Origin: Clostridia bacterium
Lineage (GTDB): Bacteria; Bacillota; Clostridia; Saccharofermentanales; UBA5734
NCBI GenBank assembly: GCA_009929975.1
Contig: RZZF01000037.1
Coordinates: forward strand, 1 to 10,729
Length of the DNA stretch: 10,729 nt
Direction: 5' to 3'
Positions within the stretch are counted from its first letter, which is position 1; every line of letters begins with the position of its first letter. Below, piece by piece: positions 3,108-7,111 of this stretch. The translations under genes and the position numbers were made by a program. The notes beneath the pieces were generated by a model. It was given only the letters and a program-made list of their open reading frames with translations. It made no database searches and was not told the DNA's origin.

Positions 3108-3689
3108 CTATTCCATGGACCACAGATCAGGCTGTCCGGTTGAAACGGCCAGTGCGCCGGCACGCAGCGCGTCCATCACTTCCGACCGCTGGCTGATCAG
3201 GCCGCCGGCGATCAGCGGACGTTCAAACTGGCTCGCCGCGAGGCGGATCGCCGCCGGGGAAATTCCGGGCAAAACCTCAACCAGATCGGGCTGGCTGCTT
3301 TGCATATGACGGCGTCCATCAGTCAGCGCCGAAGAATCGATCAGGAAAATGCGCTGGATCGTCAGCAGTCCGGCCTGGCGTGCCTGCCTGACCGCGGCCG
3401 GCCGGGTGGAAATGATCCCGTCCGGCCGGATCTGTTCAGCAATGAAGCGGATGCCGGCAGCATCTGGTTTGAGCCCGTCGATCAGATCGAGATGAAGCAG
3501 GCCGGCTCGCCTTGAATCGTGAATCCTGCGGCAGGTCGCCGCCAGGTCGACGATCGAACCGGCCAGCAGAAAAATCGTCCGGACCGGACTTTGCAGAGCC
3601 AGCTCAAGCTGAGCCGGACTGCGCACCGCGGCGATGACCGGATGACGGATCAGACGATCGGTAAACTGTTCAACGGAAAGTTCCAGCAT
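3108..3689 (-). CDS. glpP: GlpP, glycerol-3-phosphate responsive antiterminator
   Basis: This 193-residue protein is full length for GlpP, a cytoplasmic TIM-barrel-like RNA-binding regulator. In Bacillus subtilis, GlpP bound to glycerol-3-phosphate lets RNA polymerase pass leader terminators of glp operons. Family motifs visible here are HPVIAAV (16-22), HLDLIDGL (66-73), DGIISTR (90-96), IQRIFLIDSSAL (111-122), PDLVEVLPG (134-142) and IAGGLI (160-165), ending in AVST..PDLW. ATG 3689 has AGGAG 6 bases upstream. The gene is 57 bases after the DUF1667 gene and 35 bases before the glycerol-1-phosphate dehydrogenase, in the same operon as its likely target. It may also have its own promoter (see 3710-3718). 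Its probable target is the leader terminator at 7023-7062. The family assignment is confident; the target is inferred. Confidence 0.95.
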   Translation of the reverse strand: MLELSVEQFTDRLIRHPVIAAVRSPAQLELALQSPVRTIFLLAGSIVDLAATCRRIHDSRRAGLLHLDLIDGLKPDAAGIRFIAEQIRPDGIISTRPAAVRQARQAGLLTIQRIFLIDSSALTDGRRHMQSSQPDLVEVLPGISPAAIRLAASQFERPLIAGGLISQRSEVMDALRAGALAVSTGQPDLWSME

Positions 3690-3746: not shown

Positions 3747-4103
3747 TCAGCCAAGATCGCGCGTGGCGATGATATTGACATCTGTTCCGAGCACCCGCTC
3801 GATCACGACATCGCCGCGCCTGACCGGCAGATTGACCCGGGCCTGCCGGATCGCATCCAGGCAGGGGAAGATCAGCGCTTTATCGATTGGTTTATCGGTT
3901 CGCACGCTGAGCGGCGGGCCTTGATCACCGACCCGGATCAGGCTGGTCACCATGCGCTTGGGCGCGGTGACTTCGTCATGGGCGTAGCGGACGCCGCGAT
4001 TGCAGAGATTGCCGCGCACCGAACGGACTTCACCGTTTTCCACGGTGACGTTCAGCGAACAGCCCATCGGACAGCCGATGCAGATAATATCCCGTTCAGG
4101 CAT
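3747..4103 (-). CDS. DUF1667 protein, small four-cysteine redox partner
   Basis: This 118-residue protein has an N-terminal CIGCPMGC motif (Cys8, Cys11, Cys15) and a fourth cysteine in GNLCNRGVRYA (Cys34). The spacing suits an iron-sulfur cluster or metal site, but that is inferred. The rest follows the DUF1667 pattern: P.R.VTS, a P.SVRT..PI.K stretch, and a C-terminal V(I)ERVLGTDVNIIATR. The family is recurrently encoded beside GlpA-like and FAD/NAD oxidoreductase genes in Bacillota and Thermotoga and is thought to be the third part of that system; its precise role is not established to my knowledge. ATG 4103 is chosen over an upstream in-frame start at 4127. It has AAGGAG 9 bases upstream, and it overlaps the stop of the preceding gene by 8 bases (ATGCCTGA), which suggests translational coupling. 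Confidence 0.9.
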   Translation of the reverse strand: MPERDIICIGCPMGCSLNVTVENGEVRSVRGNLCNRGVRYAHDEVTAPKRMVTSLIRVGDQGPPLSVRTDKPIDKALIFPCLDAIRQARVNLPVRRGDVVIERVLGTDVNIIATRDLG

Positions 4104-5433
4104 GCTGGGGCACTCCTTCCACTTCAACCGTCAGCTCACGGATCGGACCGGCCGGCAGATCCGCTGCTTTCAATCGTTCAACCACCATTTCGCCGGGTGT
4201 CATGATGCGGGTCTTGCGGCGCTGGATCAGTTTGCCGTCGGCCCGGATCAGGACAACACCGCCCCGGTAGACATCATCCGGCCGGAAGGTGATCGGCCAG
4301 GTCTCATCCGGGCTGAACGACGCGCGGTCAGTCAGCTGCAGATACTGCGGGACCAGTCCGCGTACACCCCGGCCCTCCCGAACCGGAACGGTCACGGTTT
4401 CAGCGGCGGCAGCCGGACGCTTCATCCGTGCCAGCCACTCGACAGCGGCTCTGCCGGCCCGGGCGGATTCCTCGGAAACTTCATCGACCAGGTCATGGAC
4501 ATGGAGAACATTGCCGCAGGCGAAGATGCCCGGGACCTCAGTGGCCAGGGACTGATCAACAATCGGCCCGCGGGTGCCGGGCGAAAGCGGGACACCGGCC
4601 ATCCGGGACAGTTCATTTTCCGGAATCAAGCCGACCGAAAGCAGCAGCGTGTCACAATCGATCCGCTGCGCGGTCTCCGGCAGCGGCTGCCGGGTATCCG
4701 GATTGACCGCGGCGATCGTGACCCCCTCCAGCCGTTCACGGCCATGAATGTCGATCACCGTGTGGTTGAGCATAAGTGGAATATTGAAATCCTGCAGGCA
4801 CTGCACCACATTGCGGGTCAGGCCGCTGGAATAGGGCATGATCTCCACGCAGGCCAGCACCTTCGCTCCTTCAAAGGTCATGCGGCGGGCCATGATCAGG
4901 CCGATATCGCCGGAGCCGAGGATGACGACCCGCCGGCCCGGCAGATATCCTTCCAGATTGGTCAGGCGCTGAGCCGTCCCGGTCGTCATGATACCGGCAC
5001 AGCGGGTGCCCGGTGTGCCGAGCGCGCCGCGCGGCCGCTCACGGCAGCCCATGGCCAGGATAACCGCGCCCGCTCTGATCTGGCTCAGTCCCGTCTCCGG
5101 GCTGATCAGCGTGACCTCACGGCGCATATTGATCTCGAGGACCATCGCGGAACACAGATACGGAATGCCCCGCTCCCTGACCATCTCGATGTAGCGGCCG
5201 GCATATTCCGGTCCGGTCAGTTCTTCCTTGAAACGGTGCAGGCCGAAGCCATTATGAATGCATTGGTTGAGGATGCCGCCCAGCTCATCATCGCGTTCGA
5301 CAATCAGCAGATCATGGCAGCCGGCATCCCAGGCCGCGACGGCGGCAGCCAGCCCGGCCGGACCTCCTCCGATGATCAGCAGGCTGATCCGGGACGGCAG
5401 TGCGTGGGCCTCCTGTGGGCTCCGGTCAGTCAT
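4096..5433 (-). CDS. FAD/NAD(P)-dependent oxidoreductase of the glycerol-3-phosphate dehydrogenase module
   Basis: This 445-residue flavoprotein of the pyridine nucleotide-disulfide reductase fold has an FAD dinucleotide site at IIGGGPAGLAA (20-30), an NAD(P) site at ILGSGDIGLI (171-180) and the second FAD motif GIFACGN (302-308). It lacks the adjacent CxxC redox disulfide of thioredoxin reductase; a CIHNGFG motif at 58-64 stands after the first FAD motif, as in relatives often annotated as sarcosine oxidase alpha-like. It probably exchanges electrons between the GlpA-like subunit and a pyridine nucleotide, in the cytoplasm. ATG 5433 was chosen because GGAGG lies 6 bases upstream and the start overlaps the upstream stop by 8 bases (ATGACTGA); the longer arginine-rich reading from 5481 would overlap that gene by over 50 bases. 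It is sometimes called GlpB-like, but similarity to E. coli GlpB is not evident. Confidence 0.9.
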   Translation of the reverse strand: MTDRSPQEAHALPSRISLLIIGGGPAGLAAAVAAWDAGCHDLLIVERDDELGGILNQCIHNGFGLHRFKEELTGPEYAGRYIEMVRERGIPYLCSAMVLEINMRREVTLISPETGLSQIRAGAVILAMGCRERPRGALGTPGTRCAGIMTTGTAQRLTNLEGYLPGRRVVILGSGDIGLIMARRMTFEGAKVLACVEIMPYSSGLTRNVVQCLQDFNIPLMLNHTVIDIHGRERLEGVTIAAVNPDTRQPLPETAQRIDCDTLLLSVGLIPENELSRMAGVPLSPGTRGPIVDQSLATEVPGIFACGNVLHVHDLVDEVSEESARAGRAAVEWLARMKRPAAAAETVTVPVREGRGVRGLVPQYLQLTDRASFSPDETWPITFRPDDVYRGGVVLIRADGKLIQRRKTRIMTPGEMVVERLKAADLPAGPIRELTVEVEGVPQHA

Positions 5434-7000
5434 GAGACACCTCCAGTCCACCTGCTGCGGCATCCGCCGCCGGCGGTTCATGCGAACGGACCGTCTCCCC
5501 GATGCGTCCGGTCAAAATACGCGATCCGTTGCCGAATTTGGTCAATTCCAGACGCGAGACCCCAAGCTCCTCACTGAGAATCGCCAGGACCCGCGGTGTG
5601 CAGAAGCTGGCCTGGCAGCGGCCCATGCCGGCCCGGGTCCGGCGTTTGATTCCATCGACGGTGGCCGCGCCGACCGGTCGGTTGATCGCGGCCCGGATCT
5701 CTGCTTCTGTCACCTGCTCGCAGCGGCAGATGATACGTCCCCAGGCCGGGTTGTCCCGAACAGCCCGGGCACGCTGCTCCGTCTCCATCAGACGAAACGG
5801 CTGAGGTGGCTGCCAGGCTGGCTGCCACTGGCTGCGCCGCGGTGCGTTGAGGCGTCTGGCCGCCAGGCGGGCCAGCTCAATGCCGATGGCCGGCGCGGCG
5901 GTCAGACCAGGGGATTCAATCCCCGCGGCATTGATCAGGCCGGGACAGTCCGCCACTTCCCCGAGTATGAAGTCGTTCTGCCGGGCATGCGCGCGCAGAC
6001 CGGCAAACGAGGTGATGAACTGGCCGCGCGGCAGATCCGGCCAGGTTTTCGCGGCAACCCGCAGAATTTCATCGAGACGCTGAGCCGTTGTCCGGACATC
6101 GTCTTTATCGTCAATATCCTCCGCGGTCGGCCCGAGCAGCATAGTCCCGTCAACCGTCGGCGAGACCAGAATGCCCTTGCCCATCGCGGTCGGCAGCTGA
6201 AAGATCGTGGCGGAAAACGCGTCACTGACTGACTTATCCAGCAGCCAGTATTCCCCGCGCCGCGGGGTGATCTCGATCGGCTGCCGGCTGAGCTGGTTGT
6301 GAATGGTATCCGCATAGACACCGGCCGCATTGATCAGCACCTGGCAGCGGACCGGGCCGCGGCTGGTCTGCAGATGAAACCAGCGGCCGTCATGGCGGAT
6401 CTGGCCGACCTTGCAATTCAGCTGCAGATCAAGGCCGTTGAGGACCGCATGAGCGGCCAGAGCGATCGTCAGTTCATAGGGTGAGCAGATTCCACCGGTT
6501 TCCGCCAGCAGCGCTCCGGCCGCCGAGGGCCCGATCGCCGGCTCGCGCCGGCGCAGTTCGGCCTGGCTGAGGATTGAGAGGCCGTCCACTCCGTTGATCT
6601 CGCCGCGCGACTTCAACTCGCGCAATCCGGCCAAGCCATCACTGGAAAACGCGACCACCAGCGACGTGTTGCGGCGAAACGGCACATGCAGCTCACGGCA
6701 GAGCGGTTCAAACAGCTGATTTCCGGCGACATTCGTCCGGGCCTTCTCACTACCGGGTTTGGCGTCATACCCCGCGTGGATGATCGCGCTGTTGGCTTTG
6801 CTTGTCCCTTCCGACACATCGCTGCGCATCTCCAGCAGCCCGAGCGACAGCTGCCAGCGGGACAATTCCCGGGCAATGGCGCATCCGATGACTCCACCGC
6901 CGATGATGCAGGCATCATAGACTTTCTCACCGTCAAACGGCTTTGACTGGCGCTTTCGTTCATCAGCGCCGCTCCAGACGATTTTCTGTTGCTGTTTCAT
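5426..7000 (-). CDS. glpA: GlpA-like FAD-dependent glycerol-3-phosphate dehydrogenase with BFD [2Fe-2S] domain
   Basis: This 524-residue protein of the DAO/GlpA family probably oxidises sn-glycerol-3-phosphate to dihydroxyacetone phosphate. The FAD-binding motif CIIGGGVIGCAIA is at 31-43, followed by EGTSKANSAIIHAGYDA (64-80), typical of this family, and SFAGLRAHA (331-339) before the C-terminal FAD contacts near AAGIESPGLTAAPAIG. The C-terminal part carries a BFD-like [2Fe-2S] site with Cys425, Cys427, Cys462 and Cys467 (CxC...CxxxxC), as in anaerobic GlpA and unlike aerobic GlpD or plain GlpO. No membrane segment or signal peptide is visible, and no GlpC anchor is encoded nearby. ATG 7000 has GGAGG 4 bases upstream; the TTG at 7039 lies inside a terminator and was rejected. 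It is first in a coupled set with the flavoprotein and DUF1667 genes. Lactate or another hydroxy acid as substrate cannot be excluded, but GlpP nearby favours glycerol-3-phosphate. Confidence 0.92.
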   Translation of the reverse strand: MKQQQKIVWSGADERKRQSKPFDGEKVYDACIIGGGVIGCAIARELSRWQLSLGLLEMRSDVSEGTSKANSAIIHAGYDAKPGSEKARTNVAGNQLFEPLCRELHVPFRRNTSLVVAFSSDGLAGLRELKSRGEINGVDGLSILSQAELRRREPAIGPSAAGALLAETGGICSPYELTIALAAHAVLNGLDLQLNCKVGQIRHDGRWFHLQTSRGPVRCQVLINAAGVYADTIHNQLSRQPIEITPRRGEYWLLDKSVSDAFSATIFQLPTAMGKGILVSPTVDGTMLLGPTAEDIDDKDDVRTTAQRLDEILRVAAKTWPDLPRGQFITSFAGLRAHARQNDFILGEVADCPGLINAAGIESPGLTAAPAIGIELARLAARRLNAPRRSQWQPAWQPPQPFRLMETEQRARAVRDNPAWGRIICRCEQVTEAEIRAAINRPVGAATVDGIKRRTRAGMGRCQASFCTPRVLAILSEELGVSRLELTKFGNGSRILTGRIGETVRSHEPPAADAAAGGLEVSHD

Positions 7001-7022: not shown

Positions 7023-7062
7023 AAAAAAAGAAAACCCAAAAGACCTGTCAGGGTCTTTCGGG
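7023..7062 (-). terminator. Intrinsic terminator in the glpA-like leader, probable antitermination target
   Basis: On the minus strand CCCGAAAGACC pairs with GGTCTTTTGGG through 11 base pairs (one G-T wobble) around the loop CTGACA, followed directly by TTTTCTTTTTTT. It ends 22 bases before the start codon of the GlpA-like gene and downstream of a promoter at 7103-7111, so RNA from that promoter must pass it to reach the operon. It may also end transcripts from the hydrolase genes upstream. The 5' arm can pair instead with an upstream segment (7075-7082), which would prevent the terminator from forming. Confidence 0.9.
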
Positions 7063-7082
7063 CTCTCTTTTCTCAGCCGAAA
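7056..7082 (-). promoter_or_regulatory. Candidate antiterminator hairpin competing with the leader terminator
   Basis: On the minus strand TTTCGGCT (7082-7075) can pair with AGCCCGAAA (7064-7056) through 8 base pairs with a single bulged C, around a 10-base purine-rich loop (GAGAAAAGAG). The 3' arm takes up seven bases of the terminator's 5' arm (7062-7056), so the two structures exclude each other. GlpP with glycerol-3-phosphate would be the natural protein to stabilise it, since glpP is in the same operon. That is inferred: I know of no defined GlpP recognition sequence to compare it with. Confidence 0.55.
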
Positions 7083-7102
7083 TTGATTACAGTGTTGCCT
7101 GA

Positions 7103-7111
7103 ATTATAACA
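7103..7111 (-). promoter_or_regulatory. Extended -10 promoter for the glycerol-phosphate operon
   Basis: The minus strand reads TGTTATAAT: a consensus -10 hexamer at 7108-7103 with the TGn extension. The -35 region at 17-base spacing (TGTGAT) is poor, as often with extended -10 promoters. It lies 11 bases after the stop of the beta-galactosidase gene. Transcription would start near 7096 and give a leader of about 95 bases that contains both the competing hairpin arms and the terminator. Confidence 0.65.

Follow-up and report, generated by a model that had tools for sequence, protein, structure and literature searches.

A purine-loop hairpin that overlaps the leader terminator of a clostridial glpA operon is very probably a site of GlpP control

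Introduction

The window analysed here, a stretch of 10,729 nucleotides from a genome of the class Clostridia, carries on its minus strand a glycerol-phosphate operon that begins with a GlpA-like gene and includes glpP. The antiterminator role of GlpP has been known since the 1990s. The short leader of the operon holds two stems, only one of which can form at a time, and this raises the question of what decides between them. Here, we compare the leader with those of other GlpP-bearing loci. From sequence comparison, we conclude that GlpP very probably acts on the window hairpin to switch on the operon.

Results

The operon and its leader

Four genes make up the set downstream of the leader:

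5426..7000, minus strand: GlpA-like FAD-dependent oxidoreductase with a BFD-like [2Fe-2S] domain (DAO + BFD; PF01266, PF04324)
4096..5481, minus strand: GlpB-like pyridine nucleotide-disulphide oxidoreductase (PF07992)
3747..4127, minus strand: DUF1667 protein (PF07892)
3108..3689, minus strand: GlpP, glycerol-3-phosphate responsive antiterminator (PF04309; 201 bits, cut-off 27)

These reading frames overlap or are separated by about 60 bases at most, and the order GlpA, GlpB, DUF1667, GlpP is kept in three relatives (L020, L022, L025). A first-pass annotation made from the DNA letters had placed GlpP with the glpA set, and the PF04309 match at 3689-3108 bears this out. The solved relatives of GlpP, 3kts and 1vkf, are both annotated as antiterminator proteins only.

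Two side observations concern the GlpP family. Many genomes give PF04309 matches of about 20 bits that are short and cover profile positions of about 115-172 only; these look like other barrel proteins rather than GlpP. Among the matches listed, two to five GlpP paralogues above the cut-off occur per genome in G557 (which has five), G473, G366, G441 and G274, all of one family.

The features of the leader are as follows:

Between the upstream glycosidase-type stop codon (7123) and the glpA-like start (7000), minus strand: glpA-operon leader (from sequence)
7103..7111, minus strand: extended −10 promoter TGTTATAAT (from sequence; TATAAT at 7108-7103, TG at 7111-7110)
7056..7082, minus strand: antiterminator stem-loop TTTCGGCT / loop GAGAAAAGAG / AGCCCGAAA (from folding and comparison)
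7065..7074, minus strand: conserved purine loop GAGAAAAGAG, candidate GlpP recognition site (from loop conservation)
7035..7062, minus strand: intrinsic terminator hairpin CCCGAAAGACC/GGTCTTTTGGG (from sequence and folding)
7023..7034, minus strand: terminator T tract (from sequence)

The antiterminator arms (7082-7075 and 7064-7056) form 8 bp with one bulged C, the inner part being GGCT/AGCC. Those of the terminator (7062-7052 on the 5′ side, 7045-7035 on the 3′ side) form 11 bp, one G-U among them, and 22 bases separate the end of the T tract from the glpA-like ATG at 7000. Seven bases, 7062-7056, are common to the 3′ arm of the antiterminator and the 5′ arm of the terminator, which makes the two stems mutually exclusive. 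The first-pass annotation had described the extended −10 (7111-7103), the 11-bp terminator with its T tract 22 bases before the start codon, and the 8-bp, one-bulge stem that borrows the terminator's 5′ arm; all are present in the DNA where it put them. No good −35 was seen by inspection of the sequence upstream of 7111-7103. In relatives L022 (= L242) and L244, TTGACA-17-TAGAAT promoters stand at the equivalent position before the element.

Folding of the leader

The leader (7100-7023) folds into the long terminator hairpin at −32.3 kcal/mol (z −4.84), which none of 200 shuffles equalled. The energy of the alternative stem is ordinary, about −7 kcal/mol (z −0.40), with 70 of 200 shuffles as good. 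Folding energy was dropped as support for the antiterminator because the stem is no better than shuffles in this respect, and the evidence beyond chance for the stem is therefore the comparison with relatives alone. When RNA prefixes were folded, the antiterminator had a probability of 0.97-1.0 as long as the RNA ended between 7054 and 7042; this fell to 0.78 with the end at 7039 and to about 0 at 7036 and beyond. This loss at 7036 implies that the RNA on its own would terminate.

The prefix folds also suggested an outer helix enclosing the core, CTGT/ACAG in the window and with different arms in relatives. It was rejected as a general feature: in none of six leaders did it exceed shuffled flanks at the 5% level (fractions 0.055 to 0.435), and the Bacillales flanks are, if anything, less paired than shuffled ones.

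Conservation among close relatives

Full GlpP is encoded in 8 of the 23 family genomes searched. In six of these eight, CGGYTGAGAAAAGAGAGCYSG is kept before glpA with drifting terminator arms; the pattern CGGCTGAGAAAAGAGAGCYCG, allowing up to 3 mismatches, finds it there (G000, G014, G015, G004, G005 and G006). No element was seen before glpA in the 15 family genomes without full GlpP. Four more matches to CGGCTGAGAAAAGAGAGCYCG, with 3 mismatches each (two in G007, one each in G008 and G018), resemble coding sequence by eye, and one of them spans an ORF. A leader copy was not found in GlpP-bearing G003 and G007, whose glpP contigs stop inside glpA. Leader and glpP share one contig in G000, G015, G004 and G005 and lie on separate contigs in G006 and G014, so that four of the six genomes show linkage within one operon.

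Across the six family leaders, the loop GAGAAAAGAG is invariant and a CGGYT/AGCY core is retained; the terminator arms shift, for example from CCCGAAA/TTTTGGG to CCGGAA/TTCCGG. In L244, TTCGGTT pairs with AGCCGGAA with no bulge. Judged from these sequences, the conserved core is a loop GAGA-N-GAG on a short stem of variable sequence, and the 8-bp length and the bulge are local. The stem of the first-pass annotation thus survives as a paired element; its length and bulge do not survive as shared features, given the bulge-free stem of L244.

Distribution across GlpP loci

We sampled 80 GlpP loci from the window's class, picked by hand and mostly one per genus, 8 from its order, and 80 named Bacillales kept of 564 confirmed loci. 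A loop GAGA-N(2-5)-GAG on a stem recurs before glp genes across these loci. Examples are GATAC-A-GAGATTTGGAG-AC-GTATC, AATGTG-TG-GAGAATTGGAG-T-CACATT and TGGCT-GAGACTTGGAG-AGCCA. In L126, the element reads CCTTG-GAGAAAAGAG-CAAGG, with a loop identical to that of the window and a different stem.

A survey covered 418 leaders from 176 sources, excluding GlpB and DUF1667 leaders, matches starting past query residue 120, and leaders shorter than 60 nt. Elements whose stem has 4 bp or more are present in 53 of 77 glpD, 35 of 56 glpF and 27 of 52 glpA leaders, and in 7 of 72 glpK and 25 of 161 glpP leaders. Dinucleotide-shuffled leaders gave a mean of 9.1 of 418 (10 shuffles), and the antisense strand 13 of 418. 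The alignment of glpA-, glpF- and glpD-type leaders suggested when the switch was first described thus turned up the same kind of stem-loop, at a level above shuffled leaders.

The element extends to the B. subtilis group. Bacillus sp. SKDU12 (L162) encodes a GlpP with 97% identity to that of B. subtilis; its glpF leader contains TGTG-ATG-GAGAACTCGGAG-AC-CACA and its glpD leader GGTC-CT-GAGACGAGGAG-A-GACC, both genes being assigned by recognition of their ORFs. Separately, many Bacillales glpF, glpD and glpP leaders carry a conserved stretch like AGTTAATA just before the stem. It sits near the presumed 5′ end of the transcript, for example in L162 upstream of 10627 and 13134, and may have a role for GlpP or in mRNA stability.

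Association with GlpP

Among glpA leaders, the stem-bearing element (at least 4 bp) occurs in 34 of 56 on GlpP loci versus 0 of 40 in GlpP-lacking genomes (p = 2.3e-11, a value that takes no account of family-wise independence). The loop alone occurs in 43 of 56 versus 6 of 40. The 40 GlpP-lacking genomes are of the same class, drawn from at least about 63, by hand count, that have glpA and no full GlpP; "GlpP-lacking" here means that the assembly, possibly incomplete, gave no match above the Pfam cut-off. The strict pattern misses 22 of the 56 glpA leaders on GlpP loci, of which several show variants by eye, such as GGCT-TAGAGTTAGAG-AGCC in L101. The association of element and GlpP is partly due to shared ancestry. 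Together, the shared element on GlpP loci and its absence from all 40 glpA leaders without full GlpP support, at the level of sequence, the earlier proposal that GlpP controls the leader.

Pairing, covariation and overlap with terminators

In loops of the form GAGANNNRGAG, collected with no stem filter, stems of at least 5 bp are present in 80% of class elements (n = 15) versus 24% when partners are swapped, and stems of at least 4 bp in 78% of Bacillales elements (n = 86) versus 54%. With the wider loop GAGA-N2-5-GAG, again with no stem filter, stems of at least 4 bp are present in 65% (class, n = 49) versus 29%, and in 72% (Bacillales, n = 111) versus 47%. In every set, the observed mean stem length was reached by none of 500 partner swaps. 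The stems themselves are diverse: with G-U variants treated as separate, 39 terminator-overlapping class elements contain 23 different inner 4-bp stems.

In the Bacillales alignment A3, 57.6% of cells pair over 7 pairs versus 44.7% in shuffled versions, and slid versions score lower. Two of five covariation measures on A3 (pairs changed on both sides, and further pair types) are not above shuffles, and the relatedness of the sequences limits the weight of the remaining measures. Covariation of the alternative stem, among the checks that the first-pass annotation had proposed, is borne out in part: varied stems pair beyond swapped partners, and two of the five Bacillales measures give no support.

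Of 45 class elements, 39 have an antiterminator whose 3′ arm overlaps the 5′ arm of the terminator (35 of 40 when a glp gene is required within 400 nt). The same holds for 93 of the 100 Bacillales elements having a found terminator, both sets being preselected for stem and terminator. Selection of the 45 class elements required a stem of 4 bp or longer plus a terminator; in five, the 400 nt downstream contain no glp gene, and a few elements fall within genes. For 14 further Bacillales elements, the rule used found no terminator. A joint MAFFT alignment of class and Bacillales elements did not place the arms in register, and no second covariance model was built for that reason.

Covariance-model and Rfam searches

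A covariance model, R1, was trained on 60 Bacillales elements only. From 89 unique elements, 63 were left after removing near-identical ones, and three were dropped by hand (two shifted frames of one locus and one misplaced match); further matches judged spurious (L172, L221, L235, L238) had been left out beforehand. Within the window, the best R1 match is 7083-7056 at 12.4 bits, the next scoring 9.0. In the whole genome of the window, the element (12.4 bits, E 9.6) does not stand out under R1, being outscored by eleven matches and tied by two. Six of the eleven were opened, and by eye these lie inside or beside other genes. A site in L259 near 1509 on the plus strand (C456:19631), also of the window's own genome, outscores the window element under R1; there, a loop-like GAGAAATGGAG is followed by a short hairpin and a T run before an ORF, possibly by chance.

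On 92 sources outside the training set, the window included, R1 gave 50 matches up to E 10. Twenty of these coincide with members of the set of 45 class elements and 30 do not; 24 of the 50 are followed by a glp gene within 400 nt. In the L162 Bacillus genome, glpF and glpD take the first two places under R1, and both had been used for training. The third match is in coding sequence; no glpT leader was among the five matches opened of 21. As a genome-wide detector, R1 was set aside as insufficiently specific, on the results from the window and L162 genomes.

Neither the window nor any of 8 related loci contains a match to an Rfam 15 family at its cut-off. With thresholds relaxed, five matches to the window leader appeared, each scoring far below cut-off; the L162 glpF leader gave none.

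An anomaly at window positions 1 to about 1830

The stretch from window position 1 to about 1830 is a separate matter. An ORF of 811 aa (3072-637, minus strand) with a glycerol-1-phosphate dehydrogenase-like N-terminus (Fe-ADH_2) runs into the C-terminal permease of an RbbA-type ABC protein, and a YhhJ-type permease comes next. The permease part has 75% identity to Thauera RbbA on a plasmid record and 67% DNA-level identity to E. coli rbbA-yhhJ; among 22 other family genomes, a close copy is present in G019 only (76%). In L025, the dehydrogenase frame continues past the break with other sequence, and the compared stretch ends inside the frame. The region of this ORF is probably a chimeric contig join.

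Discussion

A protein-controlled attenuator

We consider it highly likely that the leader is a transcription attenuator under protein control, in which an antiterminator held by GlpP competes with the terminator. A protein-held antiterminator is argued for by the conserved loop, the stem that is free in sequence and paired nonetheless, the overlap with the terminator, the linkage to GlpP, and the likeness to glpF and glpD leaders of the B. subtilis group. Within this reading, we infer GlpP binding, the role of glycerol-3-phosphate, cotranscription and the feedback loop; binding, ligand and feedback are drawn by analogy with B. subtilis and from gene order.

Events would run as follows. RNA polymerase would start near 7096, and the hairpin CGGCT-GAGAAAAGAG-AGCCCG would be the first to emerge. 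Without ligand-bound GlpP, completion of the 3′ arm of the terminator would displace the antiterminator by strand exchange, and transcription would stop at 7034-7023. GlpP with glycerol-3-phosphate would instead bind the purine loop and its closing stem and hold the antiterminator hairpin. This would keep 7062-7056 from the terminator, and glpA-glpB-DUF1667-glpP would be transcribed. Since glpP lies inside the transcribed set, read-through would yield more GlpP, a presumptive positive feedback.

Alternatives to this model deserve consideration. GlpP might act in the manner of HutP, binding GAGA...GAG as single-stranded RNA and blocking the terminator sterically, with the alternative stem incidental. 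The loop is indeed much better conserved than the stem, whose energy is ordinary, and Bacillales stems are short, often 4 bp. An incidental stem sits less easily with arms that vary and still pair beyond swapped-partner controls, or with the overlap between 3′ arm and terminator arm found in 39 of 45 class and 93 of 100 Bacillales elements. Steric blocking accounts for the paired stems less well than a protein-held antiterminator; we regard it as unlikely. It is more improbable still that the hairpin is simply the constitutive terminator of the upstream glycosidase gene (8769-7123), with glpA reached by leak-through or from an uncontrolled promoter of its own. The 5′ arm of the terminator starts 60 bases past the glycosidase stop codon, and a terminator scan of the minus strand found nothing else terminator-like from that stop codon to glpA, as this explanation would have it. 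However, the hairpin is separated from the stop codon by a promoter, whose operon a constitutive terminator would block. Relatives whose upstream gene differs by eye keep the leader as well, and the conserved loop, superfluous for a terminator, belongs to an element missing from 40 of 40 GlpP-lacking glpA leaders.

That missing element likewise bears on whether the loop serves CsrA or some other RNA-binding protein. One known type of CsrA site has GGA in a hairpin loop, which the GGA/GAG loop resembles. The element is tied to GlpP loci, however, and the loop here lies well upstream of the start codon; we give this explanation very little credence. Small leaders with terminators are often riboswitches, and a sub-threshold match to the Pseudomonas rnk leader covers the window leader (16.9 bits, cut-off 55, E 1.3). 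Control of the terminator by a known leader RNA, whether riboswitch, T-box or another kind, nevertheless seems extremely improbable, given the Rfam result at cut-off for the window and its 8 related loci.

Whether the antiterminator held by GlpP generalizes is a broader question. That GlpP recognises one hairpin throughout the Bacillota, with a purine loop GAGA-N(2-5)-GAG, a stem of free sequence and a 3′ arm that doubles as the terminator's 5′ arm, is a proposition we hold evenly balanced. If true, the GlpP family would have an RNA element class with a defined recognition loop and an unpublished consensus. The loop-and-stem consensus, linking B. subtilis-group glpF and glpD leaders with the glpA operons of the class, is a target for binding, footprinting and structure work. 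Together with terminators, it could help in calling GlpP regulons from sequence, and the element could be a short, portable, glycerol-responsive control part.

Comparison with known systems

In the BglG/SacY/LicT systems, too, a protein-held hairpin (RAT) overlaps the 5′ arm of a terminator. The protein is unrelated (GlpP in place of a CAT/PRD protein), and the RNA is a different one, recognition in the window probably residing in the purine loop. No protein with a CAT RNA-binding or PRD domain was found among the nine window proteins scanned with Pfam.

HutP of B. subtilis, as presented in PMC7430163, is a ligand-activated RNA-binding antiterminator with a purine-rich target, and in this GlpP would resemble it. 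HutP is a different protein and binds clusters of NAG repeats, whereas the window has one hairpin loop with an arm that overlaps the terminator. The two are alike in being placed in their own operons.

GlpP antitermination, and the binding of GlpP to an antiterminator, are already in print for B. subtilis. The first-pass annotation had held that no defined GlpP antiterminator was described; this was mistaken as regards a GlpP-bound antiterminator in B. subtilis and may stand as regards a consensus structure. We found no published consensus structure of the element in the open-access literature, and older B. subtilis papers outside it may well show a conserved sequence or a drawing of the antiterminator. 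The main text of the new-RNA survey PMC11109978 contains neither "glp" nor "glycerol". The comparative loop-and-stem consensus may be new.

According to PMC9604022, the B. subtilis glpD, glpT and glpFK promoters are GlpP targets, with a binding site and a terminator in the 5′ UTR. The window shares with the glpD, glpFK and glpT leaders a PF04309 protein, a conditional intrinsic terminator between promoter and first gene, and glycerol genes downstream; with B. subtilis-group glpF and glpD leaders it shares the loop-and-stem element itself. Its loop is one base shorter than the commonest form (GAGA-AAA-GAG versus GAGA-NNN-GGAG). Unlike in B. subtilis, the leader would control genes for GlpA-like, GlpB-like and DUF1667 proteins, and glpP closes this set rather than standing as a separate gene before glpF.
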